From: Candidatus Rokuibacteriota bacterium | Lineage (GTDB): Bacteria > Bacteroidota > Bacteroidia > Flavobacteriales > Flavobacteriaceae | DNA length: 64,000 nt | Assembly (NCBI GenBank): GCA_900299425.1 | Contig: OMJU01000030.1 | Span: 1-64,000, forward strand | Reading direction: 5' to 3' | In this document: piece after piece, positions 31,277-42,261 of the stretch | Layout: every line of letters starts with the position of its first letter | Numbering within the stretch: position 1 is the first letter of the stretch | The notes under the pieces: generated by a model | Seen by the model: only the letters and a program-made list of their open reading frames with translations | Databases searched by the model: none | Told to the model about the DNA's origin: nothing | Made by a program: the position numbers and the translations under genes

Positions 31277-33163
31277 ATGACTTCAAACAGACCCGTGCAG
31301 GTTTTTGACACTGCATTAAATGCCTCCCGTCAAATTGCCAAGGACGTAGCCCAAATCATAAGGCAAAAAAATCAGAGCGGTGAATTTTGTGTTCTAGGCT
31401 TGGCCACAGGATCAACCCCAAAAAGTTTCTATGCCGAGTTGGTCCGCATGCATCGCGAGGAAGATCTCAGTTTTAACAAGGTAATCACCTTCAATCTTGA
31501 TGAATATTATCCCATGCAACCGCAAGCTGTGCGAAGTTATCACCGCTTTATGCATGAACATTTATTTGATCATATCGATATCCCCAAGGATCAGGTGCAC
31601 ATTCCCGATGGTATGCTCACAGAGGATGAGATTATTCATTATTGTATTGAGTATGAAAAGAAAATTGCAGATTCAGGGGGCTTGGATCTTCAAATTTTGG
31701 GGATTGGCCGCACCGGACACATCGGGTTTAACGAACCGGGTTCTGGACGAAAGTCCAAAACAAGATTAATTAGTTTAGATCGTATTACTAAGTTAGACGC
31801 TGCCAGTGATTTCAATGGAGCAGAATATGTGCCTAATCGCGCAATTACAATGGGGGTAGGGACTATTTTGAAGGCAAAAAAAATTATTTTGATGGCCTGG
31901 GGTGAAGGGAAATCAGAAATCATAAAAAAATCTCTCGAGGGGCCAGTCACCGATCAAATACCAGCTACTTTTTTACAAAATCACCCAAATACCGATGTAT
32001 TTTTAGACGAAGCTGCGGCTTCTGACTTGATTGCCTATGCCACGCCCTGGCTTACTCAATCAGTAGAATGGACTCCTAAAATGGTAAAAAAGGCCGTGAT
32101 CTGGCTTTGTTATAAAACCCAAAAACCAATCCTCAAGTTAACCGAGAATGATTATTCTGAGAATGGTCTGGAATCCTTACTCTCAGCGCATAATGGAGCC
32201 TATGCCATAAATCTGGATATTTTTAATAAAATTCAAAGAACAATAACCGGCTGGCCAGGGGGTAAACCGGAGGTTGATGATTTTCATCGACCAGAACGAT
32301 CCAATCCAATGCCCAAAAGATCGCTTATTTTTAGCCCACACCCTGATGACGATGTGATTTCTATGGGCGGCACTTTCAAGCGATTAGTGGATCAGGGCCA
32401 TGAAGTTCATGTGGCGTACCAGACTTCAGGAAATATTGCTGTTTTTGATGACTATGTCGTACAGTTAATCGATTTATTCGACGAGATAAATCATTCAAAA
32501 GGGATTTTGGATAATGATCTCTCAAAACTGGTTAAGCTCGCTTTAGACAAAAGCGATTTGGATCAAATGGATGATGAATTACTGCGCAATTTGAAAGGAT
32601 TAATACGCAAGGTCGAAGCCAAAGCGGCATGTCGCTTTGTCGGAGTGCCTGTTGACCGGATTCATTTTATGAAACTTCCTTTTTACGAGACAGGAACCAT
32701 CAAAAAAAATCCGTTGGGACCTGAAGATGTTGCATTGACAGTAGCACTACTCAATGAAATAAAACCTCATCAAATATTTGCGGCCGGAGATTTGTCCGAT
32801 CCTCATGGAACACACAGAGTTTGTCTAGAGGCCATTACGCAGGCTTTGGCACAATGCTCAAAACAAGAGTGGTTTAAATCTTGTTATGTATGGCTTTATC
32901 GTGGCGCTTGGCAAGAATGGCCAATCGAGGCAATAGATATGGCTGTTCCTCTGAGTCCCGCCGAAGTGTTTAGTAAAAGAAAGGCCATTTTTAAACATCA
33001 ATCGCAAAAGGATGCTCCAGTTTTTCCTGGCCCTGATAACCGAGAGTTTTGGCAAAGGGCCGAAGAGCGCAATGCCCATACGGCAGAATTATACGATCGA
33101 CTAGGTCTGCCAGAATACCAGGCTATTGAAGCATTTCAGCGGTTATTGATAGCTACTGAATAG
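31277..33163 (+). CDS. nagB: glucosamine-6-phosphate deaminase fused to PIG-L/LmbE-type deacetylase domain
   Basis: N-half NagB (LGLATGSTPKSFY, FNLDEYY, GIGRTGHIGFNEPGS); C-half FSPHPDDDVISMGGTFKRL and DLSDPHGTHR. Confidence 0.92.
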   Translation: MTSNRPVQVFDTALNASRQIAKDVAQIIRQKNQSGEFCVLGLATGSTPKSFYAELVRMHREEDLSFNKVITFNLDEYYPMQPQAVRSYHRFMHEHLFDHIDIPKDQVHIPDGMLTEDEIIHYCIEYEKKIADSGGLDLQILGIGRTGHIGFNEPGSGRKSKTRLISLDRITKLDAASDFNGAEYVPNRAITMGVGTILKAKKIILMAWGEGKSEIIKKSLEGPVTDQIPATFLQNHPNTDVFLDEAAASDLIAYATPWLTQSVEWTPKMVKKAVIWLCYKTQKPILKLTENDYSENGLESLLSAHNGAYAINLDIFNKIQRTITGWPGGKPEVDDFHRPERSNPMPKRSLIFSPHPDDDVISMGGTFKRLVDQGHEVHVAYQTSGNIAVFDDYVVQLIDLFDEINHSKGILDNDLSKLVKLALDKSDLDQMDDELLRNLKGLIRKVEAKAACRFVGVPVDRIHFMKLPFYETGTIKKNPLGPEDVALTVALLNEIKPHQIFAAGDLSDPHGTHRVCLEAITQALAQCSKQEWFKSCYVWLYRGAWQEWPIEAIDMAVPLSPAEVFSKRKAIFKHQSQKDAPVFPGPDNREFWQRAEERNAHTAELYDRLGLPEYQAIEAFQRLLIATE

Positions 33164-35675: not shown

Positions 35676-36557
35676 ATGAAGCGACGAAATTTTATAGAGA
35701 AGGCCACTTTGAGCGGTTTAGCGCTGGGTTCAATGACAAGTTTGAGCGGCGCAACACAAGTGTCGTCTAGGCAGGTTTTGAATCTTTCACAAACCAAAAC
35801 TAGAATTAACCACAGTGTTTGTCATTGGTGTTTTGAGCAGATCCCTTTGGAAGAATTTTTAATTACGCTTCGTCGCTTGGGGATAGGGGCTATTGATTTG
35901 GTGGGTCCAAAAGATTGGCCACTTTTAAAAAAACACAACATCCACTGTTCCATGTGTAATGGTGCGGAACTCGGCCTAACAAGGGGTTGGAACAACCTAA
36001 AATATCACCAAGAACTCATTGAAAATTACACCAAAATCATCCCGCTTGTGGCGGAGGCTGGGTATACAAATTTGATCTGCTTTAGCGGCAATCGCGATGG
36101 CATGACCGATGGAGAAGGACTTCAAAACTGTGTCGATGGTTTGAGTCAGATATTGCCTTTGGCCGAAAGCCATGGTGTGGTCTTGCAAATGGAATTATTC
36201 AATCAAATAGATCATCCGGATTATATGTGTGATCATTCTAATTGGGGGATTGCTTTGTGCAAAGCCTTGGGGAGTGAGCATTTTAAATTGCTTTACGATA
36301 TTTATCACATGCAGATTCAAGAGGGGGATATAATCCGCACGATTCAAAACAACCATCAGTATTTTGGGCATTATCACACCGCCGGAGTGCCGGGTCGTCA
36401 TGAAATTGACGAAAGTCAAGAGTTGTATTATCCTGCCATCATGCGCGCGATAGCCGAAACGGGCTATGAGGGTTATGTTGCACAAGAATTTATTCCGAGG
36501 TCTAAAGATTTGATTGGGTCACTGATTCGGGCTATTGAGATTTGTGATGTGCAGTAG
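35676..36557 (+). CDS. hydroxypyruvate isomerase-like TIM-barrel protein with Tat-like signal
   Basis: MKRRNFIEKATLSGLALGSM; xylose-isomerase-like barrel (LLYDIYHMQIQEGDIIRTI, GHYHTAGVPGRHEID). Confidence 0.88.
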   Translation: MKRRNFIEKATLSGLALGSMTSLSGATQVSSRQVLNLSQTKTRINHSVCHWCFEQIPLEEFLITLRRLGIGAIDLVGPKDWPLLKKHNIHCSMCNGAELGLTRGWNNLKYHQELIENYTKIIPLVAEAGYTNLICFSGNRDGMTDGEGLQNCVDGLSQILPLAESHGVVLQMELFNQIDHPDYMCDHSNWGIALCKALGSEHFKLLYDIYHMQIQEGDIIRTIQNNHQYFGHYHTAGVPGRHEIDESQELYYPAIMRAIAETGYEGYVAQEFIPRSKDLIGSLIRAIEICDVQ

Positions 36558-36644: not shown

Positions 36645-36926
36645 TTAATCGAAATTACTGCGGATATAGTCCTTAAACCCCTGCCAGTTTTCTTTATTGA
36701 GCCGAAAGCGCATACGATCTTGTGAAATATGACCTTCTATAAGCCCTAGAGCCCGCAATTCTTGAAGCCCTTTTTGTACTGCTTCCTTTGGGAGGTTAAT
36801 CATGTCCGCAAGACAGTTTTCATGCCACTCATCGCTAGCCGTTTAACATTCTAGGATGGCCACTTTAACGGGGTGTGCCATTGCAGAAGCTGCGGCAGCC
36901 AATTTAATTTGATTTTCGGTAAACAT
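36645..36926 (-). pseudogene. ArsR-like winged-helix regulator interrupted by in-frame TAA at codon 28
   Basis: MFTENQIKLAAAASAMAHPVKVAILEC*TASDEWHENCLADMINLPKEAVQKGLQELRALGLIEGHISQDRMRFRLNKENWQGFKDYIRSNFD*. MAHPVKVAIL and QKGLQELRALGLIEG are ArsR-like. Confidence 0.75.
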
Positions 36927-37018: not shown

Positions 37019-37240
37019 TCACGGTGAAGGATTTTCCCATGGGAAATCGAAATAGAATAAGATTTCCATCGGCACTTCTAATAAAAGAGAAAGGCGCATG
37101 CCGAGTTCAAGACTAGGGTTATAGCGATAACTCTCGATTGAAATGATTGTTTGTCGGCTCACATCTAGGCGTCTTCCGAGCTCTTGTTGTGACCAGCCTT
37201 TTGTGAGACGGTATTCTTTAACGCGATGGCGAAATATCAT
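37019..37240 (-). CDS. XRE-family transcriptional regulator (short)
   Basis: RVKEYRLTKGWSQQELGRRLDVSRQTIISIESYRYNPSLELGMRLS HTH. Start at MIFRHRVK; the ORF extends to 37294. Confidence 0.9.
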   Translation of the reverse strand: MIFRHRVKEYRLTKGWSQQELGRRLDVSRQTIISIESYRYNPSLELGMRLSLLLEVPMEILFYFDFPWENPSP

Positions 37241-37325
37241 GAAGGGTTCACTTAAATTGTTGTACCTTTCTTTCGAAAGATAATACCTCGTCAAAAGATT
37301 TTCTTGACAAATATAATAAATTTTA

Positions 37326-37343
37326 AGTAAAGTATACTTTACT
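37326..37343. promoter_or_regulatory. perfect 18-bp palindrome AGTAAAGTATACTTTACT, candidate operator
   Basis: Exactly self-complementary; in the divergent intergenic region between the XRE gene and the TIM-barrel gene. Confidence 0.6.
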
Positions 37344-37362
37344 AAAAATGTGTTAAGTGGCC

Positions 37363-37393
37363 TTTACAATATTAATGTAAAGTAACATTTACA
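37363..37393. promoter_or_regulatory. clustered TTTACA/TGTAAA half-sites, candidate operator
   Basis: TTTACA-N7-TGTAAA followed by TTTACA (37388-37393), immediately upstream of the 37410 ATG. Confidence 0.5.
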
Positions 37394-37409
37394 TAATTTT
37401 ATTGGAACA

Positions 37410-38300
37410 ATGAAGAGAAAAACATTTATAAAGCTCGGGAGTAGCGCCTATCTGGCAAGTTTAATGCCGTTTTCCTGCATAGGTCCGACACCTTCAAAAC
37501 GTAAAATGGGCTTGCAACTTTACACAGTTCGCGATGCCATGGAGCGTGACGTCACAGGTACTCTGAAGGCGCTGAAAGCTATGGGATACACTAATTTTGA
37601 GTCATATGGCTATGACGTCACGAGTCAGACCTATTATGGGATGAGTCCGGAGGCCTTTAAACAACTACTCACGGACCTTGAATTAACTACCAACAGCGGT
37701 CATTATGGGTTTGCAGATCATATGTGGTCGTCAAAAGAGGTGTTATTGGCCTACACAGATGCCTGTATCGAAGGCGCCTCGCGTCTTGGAGATGAGTATA
37801 TTGTTTGGCCAATAGTTAGGGAGGCGGATCGCAACCTAGATGGATTTAAAAAGTTGGCGGAACAATTAAGCATTATCGGAGAGCGAACCGCCGCAGCCGG
37901 TATGGGCTTTGCCTATCATAATTTTGGCTATGAATTTGAGCAGTACGAGGAATTCATGCCCTATGAATACATTATACAGCAAACTGACCCAGCACATGTC
38001 CAGCTGGAGGTCGATTTTTATTGGGTTTCTCGGGCAGGGGTGTTTACTCCAAAAGAGATCATCGAATTGGCTCCCGGCCGCTATCCTCTTTGGCACATTA
38101 AAGACATGGATAAGGTGACCCAGGACTATACTGAACTTGGTAATGGATCAATCGATTACACAACTTTGATGCCTGATCCCGAGCGTGCCGGGCTGAAACA
38201 CCATTACATTGAACAAGGCGGTAATTTCGTCAAGGATTCTATGAGCAGTGTGGCACAAAGCGCGGCTTATTTTCAAAAGGAGTTAAAGCACTTTTTCTAA
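37410..38300 (+). CDS. sugar phosphate isomerase/epimerase-like TIM-barrel protein
   Basis: KMGLQLYTVRDAMERDVTGTLKALKAMGYTNFESYGY and YPLWHIKDMDK; lipoprotein/Tat-like N-terminus. Confidence 0.9.
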   Translation: MKRKTFIKLGSSAYLASLMPFSCIGPTPSKRKMGLQLYTVRDAMERDVTGTLKALKAMGYTNFESYGYDVTSQTYYGMSPEAFKQLLTDLELTTNSGHYGFADHMWSSKEVLLAYTDACIEGASRLGDEYIVWPIVREADRNLDGFKKLAEQLSIIGERTAAAGMGFAYHNFGYEFEQYEEFMPYEYIIQQTDPAHVQLEVDFYWVSRAGVFTPKEIIELAPGRYPLWHIKDMDKVTQDYTELGNGSIDYTTLMPDPERAGLKHHYIEQGGNFVKDSMSSVAQSAAYFQKELKHFF

Positions 38301-38309
38301 AGAACGGGT

Positions 38310-39590
38310 ATGATAAAAATTGGACTTTGGTCGAGTACAGCTCTGGTGACCGGAAACATGATCGGTTCGGGTATTTTTTTATTGCCCGCGACACTCGCCG
38401 CTTTTGGCGGTATTGGCCTGATGGGCTGGTTATACTCTGCTATTGGGGCCTTGCTTTTCACCTTGGTTTTTCGTCAACTGAGTCAGCGACTGCCTGAGAC
38501 TATCGGGGGGCCCTATGCTTATGTAAAATTAATGCTGGGCGATTTCTGGGGATTTTTAGTTGGCTGGGGGTATTGGGTCTCGATCTGGTGCACTAATGCA
38601 GCAATTGCCGTTGCCTTTGTGGGCTATTTATCAGTTTTTATTCCCGAAATCAACCACAACACCCCACTTGCGATCAGTTGCGGGCTAGGGGCGATTTGGG
38701 CGCTTAGCGCAGTGAATAGTTTTTCGATTCGCACGGTCGCCTGGGTGCAAAAAATAACCACAGTATTAAAGCTACTACCAATTTTGTCCATCGGATTTAT
38801 TGGCGTCTTTTATATCGATTGGTCACTAATCAATTTTGACAATTTATCAGGTCAAAGCGATTTTCAGGCCATTTCTGCCGTGACCACCTTAACCCTTTTT
38901 GCATTTTTAGGACTGGAATCTGCTACCGTGGCCAGTGGACGCACAAAAAACGCAGCCAAAACAGTAGGACGCGCCGGAATGATAGCCTTGGGGATTACCG
39001 GAGTTACCTATATTTTATCTTCCGTAGCGATTTTCGGCATACTCCCCCCTGAAGTATTAAAAGATTCGTCAGCGCCATTTGCCGATGCTGCATCGGTCTT
39101 TTGGGGCGAAAAAGCGAAGTATATCGTGGCTGCGGGGGCCATTGCCGCCACTCTTGGGGCCCTAAACGGCTGGCTGCTCATACAAGGCCAAATTCCCATG
39201 GCCTCGGCCCAAGACGGACTCTTTCCTAAAATATTTGCGCGCGTCAATCGTCATGGATCGCCGATTATCGGCATAGCGATATCGAGTGTCTTGGCCTCAA
39301 CGGTTTTGACCTTTAGATTTTCAGAGCATTTAGCTCAAGTCTTTGGCTTTATGATGAACCTTTCGACGCTTTCTGTACTCACGCCATATTTGATGACCAT
39401 TATCAGCCTGCTGTTGCTGCTTAAAAGGGACGCTATCCGGAATCGAATGATGCAAACGGTTTCCTGGCTATCCATCGGCTTTTGTCTTTGGATTATATAT
39501 GGCTGCGGCTTAGAGGTAGTGGCCTATGGAGGCTTGTTGGTGCTTGCAGGAATTTTTATTTACTTTACCTTAATCAAGCCCAAGAAATGA
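38310..39590 (+). CDS. APC family amino-acid permease
   Basis: TGNMIGSGIFLLPATLAAFG, GGPYAYVKLMLGDFWGFLVGWGYW, multi-TM. Confidence 0.92.
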   Translation: MIKIGLWSSTALVTGNMIGSGIFLLPATLAAFGGIGLMGWLYSAIGALLFTLVFRQLSQRLPETIGGPYAYVKLMLGDFWGFLVGWGYWVSIWCTNAAIAVAFVGYLSVFIPEINHNTPLAISCGLGAIWALSAVNSFSIRTVAWVQKITTVLKLLPILSIGFIGVFYIDWSLINFDNLSGQSDFQAISAVTTLTLFAFLGLESATVASGRTKNAAKTVGRAGMIALGITGVTYILSSVAIFGILPPEVLKDSSAPFADAASVFWGEKAKYIVAAGAIAATLGALNGWLLIQGQIPMASAQDGLFPKIFARVNRHGSPIIGIAISSVLASTVLTFRFSEHLAQVFGFMMNLSTLSVLTPYLMTIISLLLLLKRDAIRNRMMQTVSWLSIGFCLWIIYGCGLEVVAYGGLLVLAGIFIYFTLIKPKK

Positions 39591-40675
39591 GTAAATTTTT
39601 CGTCCATCCAGATATAAAAAAGGCCGAAACCCTGCCCGCCCATTTTTATCGCGATCCCGAGGTATTCCAAAGGCTGGCCGATGAGGTATTTAGTAAGACT
39701 TGGCAATTTCTAGGGGATCAAGAAACCTTGTTGCCGCTGAGTGAATCCCACGCGCCTTTGAACTTTTTATCCCCACTTATTGAAGAACCCATGTTGCTGG
39801 TACGTGACAAGAATGAGCAAACAAGTTGTTTGTCTAATGTTTGTACCCATCGTGGCAATCTTTTAGCCCATCATCCAGGGCGGGGCAAACAAATTATATG
39901 TCACTATCACGGCCGTCGTTTCGGCCTTGATGGTCAGTTTAGAAGCATGCCTGAATTTGAACAGGCTGAGGATTTTCCTCGCCCCTGTGATCACTTACAT
40001 CAGTATCCACTGCGCAACTGGTATGGCCTTATGTTTACCAGCATTGAGCCTGCCTTTGATCTCGATGAGGTTTTAGCGCAAATGCAAGAGCGCGTCGGAT
40101 TTATGGCCCTTGATCAGCTCAAATTTGACCCCGTGCGCAGTCGTGATTATCTTGTGAATGGTCATTGGGCCTTGTATTGTGATAATTATCTCGAAGGATT
40201 TCATATTCCATTTGTCCATCAGGGCCTCAATGCGGCCATTGATTACGAGACGTACGAGACGCATTTATATCCGCACATGAACCTTCAGATTGGGCTGAGT
40301 AAAGGGGATGCGCTTAGTTTTACACTAACAAAGGGACACCCTGATTATGGTAAGTCGGTCTCTGCCTATTACTATTGGGTTTTCCCAAATATGATGTTTA
40401 ATTTTTATCCTTGGGGACTCTCGATTAATGTGGTGCGCCCCATCTCAAAAAAGCAGTCCAAAGTGTCTTTTATTACCTACGTGTTAGACGCCTCAAAACT
40501 CGATCAAGGTGCGGGGGCAGATCTGGATAAGGTCGAACGCGAAGATGAATATGTGGTCGAGGCAGTCCAAAAAGGCATGGAATCGCGACATTACACCACA
40601 GGGCGTTTTAGCCCGACTCGAGAGCAGGGTGTACACCATTTTCATCGCTTGCTAGTGGAGTTTTTATCCCCTTAA
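39587..40675 (+). CDS. Rieske-type aromatic ring-hydroxylating/choline-monooxygenase-like oxygenase alpha subunit
   Basis: Rieske CTHRGNLLAHHPGRGKQIICHYHGRRFGLDG and mononuclear-iron region DNYLEGFHIPFVH. ATGA overlap with the permease stop. Confidence 0.9.
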   Translation: MSKFFVHPDIKKAETLPAHFYRDPEVFQRLADEVFSKTWQFLGDQETLLPLSESHAPLNFLSPLIEEPMLLVRDKNEQTSCLSNVCTHRGNLLAHHPGRGKQIICHYHGRRFGLDGQFRSMPEFEQAEDFPRPCDHLHQYPLRNWYGLMFTSIEPAFDLDEVLAQMQERVGFMALDQLKFDPVRSRDYLVNGHWALYCDNYLEGFHIPFVHQGLNAAIDYETYETHLYPHMNLQIGLSKGDALSFTLTKGHPDYGKSVSAYYYWVFPNMMFNFYPWGLSINVVRPISKKQSKVSFITYVLDASKLDQGAGADLDKVEREDEYVVEAVQKGMESRHYTTGRFSPTREQGVHHFHRLLVEFLSP

Positions 40676-41379: not shown

Positions 41380-42261
41380 ATGAGTAAATTATATTCATTT
41401 CTTTTTTCCGTAGAAAATCGCGCGAAACTAGAGCGACTTACAGTGATCTTGGCAATTGTGGGCTTTTTCGCCCATTTAGCATTAATAGGACTCGCACAGT
41501 TTTGGCCTATTGAACTATTTGGGGGACAACTATTACAAAATCCGATCAACGCTATTTACACGCCGTTTTCATTTATTCTTATTTTCGAGATTTACTTGTT
41601 AATCTTCTATTTGCCGCGCTCGTTCAGCACGTCTCTTTTAAAGCAATTTGAAGTGATTTCGCTTATTATGGTGCGCCGCGTATTTGGAGACATTACCAAC
41701 ATTAATTTTGCTGAGATTGAAATCAGTAATCCGGGGTTTATCAAGCTTGTGATTGATTTGGGGGCCGTTTTGATTATGGCCTTGGCGATTTTGCTATTTA
41801 TAAAAGCCAAAAATAAACTCAAGGCTTACGGACAGCCCGACATGGATCCCAGTGAACAGAGATTTAATAGTTTAAAACGTCAAGTATCAGCAATACTACT
41901 GGTCCTCTTGGGGGGTATTTCATTGCTTCATTTAGTAGATTTTGCTGTGGTACAATTCACAGGAGAACATCTGGTGGCCTCATTTAATAATGACCTTGAT
42001 TCGATTTTTTACAAAGATTTCTTTACGGCCTTGATATTGGCCGATGTATTGATTTTACTGCTGTCTTACGCGCTATCGCAAGATTATTTTAAGCTGATCC
42101 GCAATACAGGATTCGTCATTACGACCGTTTTATTGCGCCTGTCTTTTGGCGCGTCCCAACCATTTGATGTGTTGTTGATTATTACCGGCGCGTTATTTGG
42201 GTATCTCATGCTTTTGATGTACATCGGGTACAGCCGAGAGACACAAGATCACAAAAGCTAG
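41380..42261 (+). CDS. hypothetical multi-pass membrane protein
   Basis: 293 aa, about 7 hydrophobic segments; no family recognised. Confidence 0.6.
   Translation: MSKLYSFLFSVENRAKLERLTVILAIVGFFAHLALIGLAQFWPIELFGGQLLQNPINAIYTPFSFILIFEIYLLIFYLPRSFSTSLLKQFEVISLIMVRRVFGDITNINFAEIEISNPGFIKLVIDLGAVLIMALAILLFIKAKNKLKAYGQPDMDPSEQRFNSLKRQVSAILLVLLGGISLLHLVDFAVVQFTGEHLVASFNNDLDSIFYKDFFTALILADVLILLLSYALSQDYFKLIRNTGFVITTVLLRLSFGASQPFDVLLIITGALFGYLMLLMYIGYSRETQDHKS

Follow-up and report, generated by a model that had tools for sequence, protein, structure and literature searches.

What does a cell gain from an amino-acid-type permease whose gene ends inside the start of an oxygenase gene? The question is raised by a locus on contig OMJU01000030.1 (assembly GCA_900299425.1), of which the first 64,000 nucleotides, hereafter the window, were analysed. 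The contig belongs to a draft genome of 1.79 Mb in 165 contigs, 83% complete, whose nearest relatives in the database carry the label Flavobacteriaceae or Flavobacteriales. On the plus strand, at 38310-39590, lies the gene of an APC-superfamily permease of 426 residues (PF13520, 207 bits), AdiC-like and thus of the basic amino acid/polyamine antiporter group. It is followed at 39587-40675 (+) by that of a Group V-like Rieske [2Fe-2S] mononuclear-iron oxygenase of 362 residues (PF00355 and PF00848, both above cut-off), and the permease stop and the oxygenase start share the ATGA at 39587-39590, as read from the sequence. The oxygenase starts at the ATG at 39587, an alternative TTG start at 39482 being unlikely. 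An earlier note on this DNA had seen here a four-gene module that also held a divergent XRE regulator and a TIM (triose-phosphate isomerase) barrel protein. All the genes it named, including a second TIM barrel gene at 35676, are present, but beyond the closest relatives only the permease and the oxygenase are kept together and the TIM barrels do not co-occur with the oxygenase. Thus, the widely conserved unit consists of two genes and is smaller than the module proposed. We found no description of this Bacteroidota Rieske-permease pair in the open-licence papers searched; it represents a widespread and so far uncharacterised form of a known enzyme group, not a new kind of system.

The pair recurs across many, mostly marine, Bacteroidota. 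Among 201 genomes of the same family, 39 hold a strong match to the oxygenase (at least 52% identity) and 30 hold the permease; both genes occur in 29, the oxygenase alone in 10 and the permease alone in one, with a Fisher p-value of 2e-25 that common descent inflates, the test counting genomes and not independent events. Of 136 distinct loci, 87 show the oxygenase with an APC permease as its direct neighbour, and 6 others lie at the end of a contig or stretch. Two observations on the arrangement of the genes support the pairing without resting on the p-value: the pair comes in two geometries, on the same strand with an overlap or short gap (25 loci) or divergently (54 loci), and in 8 loci the adjacent place is held by an APC permease of another type (GadC-like in 5, others in 3). 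The four-nucleotide overlap of the window is seen again in many relatives. Across the phylum, 37 of 396 genomes have an oxygenase match at E 1e-60 or better, and no fewer than 577 stretches from species-representative genomes code for a relative; the best 80 come mainly from Flavobacteriaceae, Saprospiraceae, Cytophagales-type and Balneolaceae records. The neighbour genes of a distant relative from Gemmatirosa (32%) were uninformative. One homologue (G367:C12:371695-372180) is apparently decaying, with two stops within the matched stretch. At two further places, L148 (G083:C18) and L151 (G024:C2), a DDAH-like, a permease and a glutaryl-CoA-dehydrogenase-like gene stand together with no oxygenase between them; G024 carries the oxygenase elsewhere, and no close homologue was found in G083.

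What kind of oxygenase is it? In searches of the PDB, the carnitine monooxygenase CntA ranks first (single-sequence E 2e-24, profile E 1e-44) and is the sole full-length match, with a profile score of 156 bits followed by 88 for the next. An AlphaFold2 model derived from 58 homologues (mean predicted local distance difference test score, pLDDT, 92) likewise finds its best fold match in CntA and its second in the stachydrine demethylase Stc2, each with a template modelling (TM) score of 0.76. The ligands of the Rieske cluster (C86, H88, C105 and H108), the 2-His-1-carboxylate ligands of the mononuclear iron (H206, H211 and D320) and the bridging Glu203, equivalent to Glu205 of CntA, are invariant in 147 of 147 homologues. 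Tyr201 corresponds to Tyr203, the cation-pi residue of the CntA active site (PMC7948474); it is Tyr in 144 homologues and Phe in 3, and the Y203F variant of CntA retains activity (PMC7948474). The invariant Asn272 and Tyr223 are the counterparts of Asn270 and Tyr225 of CntA. By these residues the oxygenase would work like a Group V enzyme. No curated equivalog model fits the protein. The second Rieske-domain protein of the genome (G000:C87; L002:1394-1882, minus strand), which is small (162 residues) and exported-looking, is unrelated to it.

The best PDB relative of the permease is AdiC (E 3e-76), and the permease scores below the cut-offs of the AdiC-type models (TIGR00905, 294 against 409; PRK10644, 317 against 574). 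Trp293 of AdiC, which forms a cation-pi contact to arginine and agmatine (PMC8406831), is Trp in all 87 permease homologues; Glu208 (87/87), Tyr93 (86/87) and Asn101 (85/87) of the AdiC site are retained as well. The gate residue Trp202 has become Phe or Tyr in nearly all of them, and Ala96, Cys97 and Met104 are changed. Judged by these residues, a cationic substrate is favoured, and the compound is not named by them. Because AdiC is its relative, the permease may be an exchanger.

Our preferred reading, to which we lean with some confidence, is that the permease imports or exchanges a positively charged compound, be it an amine, an amino acid or a betaine-like molecule, which the oxygenase then N-dealkylates or cleaves at a C-N bond in the manner of CntA. 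The AdiC-like permease would bring in the small cationic compound, possibly in exchange for the product. In the cytoplasm, the Rieske monooxygenase would hold the ammonium group of the substrate against Tyr201, and oxidation would take place at the mononuclear iron (His206, His211, Asp320). The most likely reaction is an oxidative N-dealkylation or C-N cleavage of the kind catalysed by CntA and stachydrine demethylase. That a small amine or betaine-like compound is taken up and oxidized was already suggested in the earlier note; with a cationic compound of this kind, it is still the best reading, supported by the co-occurrence of the pair, the Group V-like active site and the conserved cation-pi Trp of the permease, whereas choline or glycine betaine as substrate is not specifically supported. 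More tentatively, and with less than even confidence, this Rieske subfamily of the Bacteroidota could, together with its APC permeases, open a route of its own for a cationic compound derived from an amino acid, the substrate or reaction being new to Rieske enzymes; betaines that algae make from lysine or arginine, or basic amino acids carrying N-methyl groups, would be examples.

Where would the electrons come from? As had been said before, no reductase gene lies in the 64-kb window, but the same genome holds a candidate on another contig (C146; L203:636-1688), a PaaE-type protein of 350 residues with FAD_binding_6, NAD_binding_1 and C-terminal Fer2 domains. It stays below the cut-offs for PaaE (328 against 421) and GbcB (151 against 500), and a FAD_binding_6 protein is present in 28 of 28 genomes tested, with or without the oxygenase. 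NAD(P)H electrons would thus be delivered by a general PaaE-type reductase, shared and encoded elsewhere.

Several observations weigh against the preferred reading. The pair of cysteines adjacent to the iron, C206/C209, that marks Group V oxygenases (PMC10952381) is missing, with Gly at position 204 in 147/147 homologues and Ile or Val at position 207; because of this, we call the oxygenase Group V-like by its predicted active site and do not file it as a member of the group. The carnitine pocket is altered too, Tyr295 of CntA being replaced by Phe and Phe258 aligning with an Ala beside a gap, while Tyr315 and Phe319 meet a gap or a non-aromatic residue. On the side of electron supply, a dedicated reductase was not found, only the generic PaaE-like one, and genome G189 has the oxygenase but as its FAD_binding_6 match only a protein of 440 residues and none of PaaE size. 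Finally, 43 of the 136 loci are without an adjacent APC permease, and the shared descent behind the Fisher value has to be borne in mind.

The main rival, rather unlikely in our view, differs in the chemistry: the oxygenase would hydroxylate carbon in a basic amino acid, or in a derivative of one, of arginine or lysine type, and would remove no N-alkyl group. The product would feed basic-amino-acid catabolism, in some relatives via a kinase-phospholyase fusion or a DDAH/arginine-deiminase-like enzyme. The closeness of the permease to AdiC suits this proposal, and so do genes near the oxygenase in other genomes. Nineteen of the 20 genomes with the DDAH/arginine-deiminase-like gene carry the oxygenase; however, this gene goes along with the permease locus, is still there in L148 although the oxygenase is not, and is lacking in the genome of the window itself, and despite its strong co-occurrence it was rejected as proof of a guanidino substrate. 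Polyamine-type genes precede the oxygenase in L035. The kinase-phospholyase fusion, the pyridoxal phosphate (PLP) domain of which is closest to ethanolamine-phosphate phospho-lyase, follows directly after the oxygenase in L042, L047 and L051, at -4 to +5 nucleotides, but over the 201 genomes the two do not co-occur (8/26, p=0.10), and the idea that the fusion points to an amino alcohol as product was dropped. A glutaryl-CoA dehydrogenase-like gene, found downstream in 46 locus records (duplicates not yet removed), was set aside as a pointer to a lysine pathway, being near-universal with 177 of the 201 genomes regardless of the oxygenase. The neighbour clues tilt towards compounds derived from basic amino acids but do not prove this, and C-hydroxylation further has against it an active site like those of N-dealkylating and C-N-cleaving relatives. 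Far less probable still is that the enzyme is a conventional monooxygenase of carnitine, choline or glycine betaine whose sequence has diverged. CntA is the nearest structure and there is a weak match to the model of the glycine betaine monooxygenase GbcA, but this match reaches 77 bits against a cut-off of 670, and CntA is only about 22% identical; the choline or betaine monooxygenase assignment hinted at earlier is not supported. The substitutions at Tyr295 and Phe258, the lack of counterparts to Tyr315 and Phe319 and the missing cysteines speak against it as well, as do the lack of an adjacent reductase gene and the amino-acid/polyamine type of the permease.

A rival of another kind concerns the extent of the system. 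The XRE, TIM barrel, permease and oxygenase genes could make up a single, regulated catabolic operon in this lineage, in which the TIM barrel protein would act on the compound that the pair handles or on its product, a reading that we consider unlikely. This protein, TIM2 (37410-38300, +; PF01261), is a xylose-isomerase-like TIM barrel that begins with a signal-like segment, and its gene ends 9 nucleotides before the permease start, not 10 as the earlier note had it, the ATGA overlap given there being correct. Divergent to it lies a small regulator of the XRE family (HTH_3; 37019-37294, minus strand; PF01381). L033 and L036, which are the two nearest relatives, have the four genes in identical order, with gaps between TIM2 and permease of 106 and 36 nucleotides, respectively, and XRE homologues of 70-74% identity (tblastn) at the same place; the four genes may therefore be co-regulated in this lineage. 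However, the arrangement is confined to these three related genomes. TIM2 adjoins the pair only in L033 and L036, and the sole further XRE match near an oxygenase locus is remote (35%, L044). In the 201 genomes TIM2 does not co-occur with the oxygenase (7/39, p=0.21), TIM2-like proteins stand in varied gene contexts elsewhere, and the signal-like N-terminus implies that TIM2 probably acts outside the cytoplasm. The co-occurrence of three genes on which the module had been staked breaks down for TIM2 beyond the nearest relatives and holds for permease and oxygenase; TIM2 is probably outside the core. The second TIM barrel gene, TIM1 (35676-36557, +; PF01261), encodes a hydroxypyruvate-isomerase-like protein that stays below the cut-off of the hydroxypyruvate isomerase model. 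It is a neighbour outside the core, showing no co-occurrence with the oxygenase (11/39, p=0.36) and co-occurring with TIM2 (p 3e-6). Elsewhere, TIM1 usually lies beside genes that, from reading their protein sequences, we take to be CTP-synthase-like and YidC-like. Both TIM barrels were ruled out as general members of the unit on the strength of co-occurrence, of gene order and of the settings in which they usually stand in other genomes.

The surroundings of the locus offer some further observations. TIM1 co-occurs with the kinase-phospholyase fusion (17/26, p 3e-6), which suggests that the two share a separate pathway, and in L197:4649-7783 (G087) a TIM1 homologue lies 12 nucleotides upstream of the fusion. 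A broken helix-turn-helix-like frame, 'ArsR-like' in the earlier note (36645-36926, minus strand), is indeed interrupted by an in-frame TAA, which follows codon 27; in L033 a homologue lacks the stop, and the tblastn match to it falls into two pieces. Promoter and terminator scans gave no more matches than shuffled sequence. The oxygenase is followed in the window by a SOUL-family gene on the opposite strand. In L033 (7147-7974), L034 and L036 (7169-7921), a secreted-looking protein of 250-280 residues is encoded 57-67 nucleotides after the oxygenase; the window has no gene for this protein in that position. A membrane-like open reading frame of 293 residues at 41380-42261 (+), with no Pfam or NCBIfam match, has a 37% identical homologue downstream of the oxygenase in L037. 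At 31277-33163 (+), a glucosamine-6-phosphate isomerase-like domain is fused to a PIG-L deacetylase-like domain.

What makes the pair worth pursuing is that it provides a direct and testable handle on an unassigned organic-nitrogen compound on which common marine bacteria draw, the oxygenase relatives being abundant and many of them coming from marine Bacteroidota. Its missing cysteine pair also makes the family useful for comparing how Group V enzymes protect their iron.

How does the pair compare with known systems? The candidate electron donor shares the FAD_binding_6, NAD_binding_1 and C-terminal Fer2 domains of PaaE/GbcB-type reductases, but it lies on another contig and below both cut-offs, and FAD_binding_6 is equally present without the oxygenase. 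AdiC, the arginine/agmatine antiporter, is the closest solved relative of the permease, with Trp293, Glu208, Asn101 and Tyr93 in common; the permease differs in falling under the NCBIfam cut-off (317 against 574), in its Phe or Tyr at the Trp202 gate and in the changes at Ala96, Cys97 and Met104. With GbcA (NF058607), the oxygenase shares a weak NCBIfam match of 76.8 bits over its first 217 residues, far under the 670-bit equivalog cut-off. Stc2 (PDB 3vca, 4qup), likewise a Rieske oxygenase, takes a methyl group off a quaternary ammonium amino acid; at about 20% identity it gives no full-length sequence match, and it is nevertheless the second-best match in fold (TM 0.76). CntA (PDB 6y8j, 6y9d, 6zgp), a Group V enzyme of quaternary-ammonium substrates, differs by its C206/C209, for which the oxygenase has Gly and Ile/Val, by its Tyr295 and Phe258, which are Phe and Ala here, by its Tyr315/Phe319 without counterpart, and by the setting of the gene, which in our case has no adjacent reductase and is paired with an APC permease. 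At roughly 22% identity, the two enzymes nonetheless agree in fold (TM 0.76) and over the full length of the profile (156 bits), and in the Rieske and iron ligands, the bridging Glu, the cation-pi Tyr and the counterparts of Tyr225 and Asn270.

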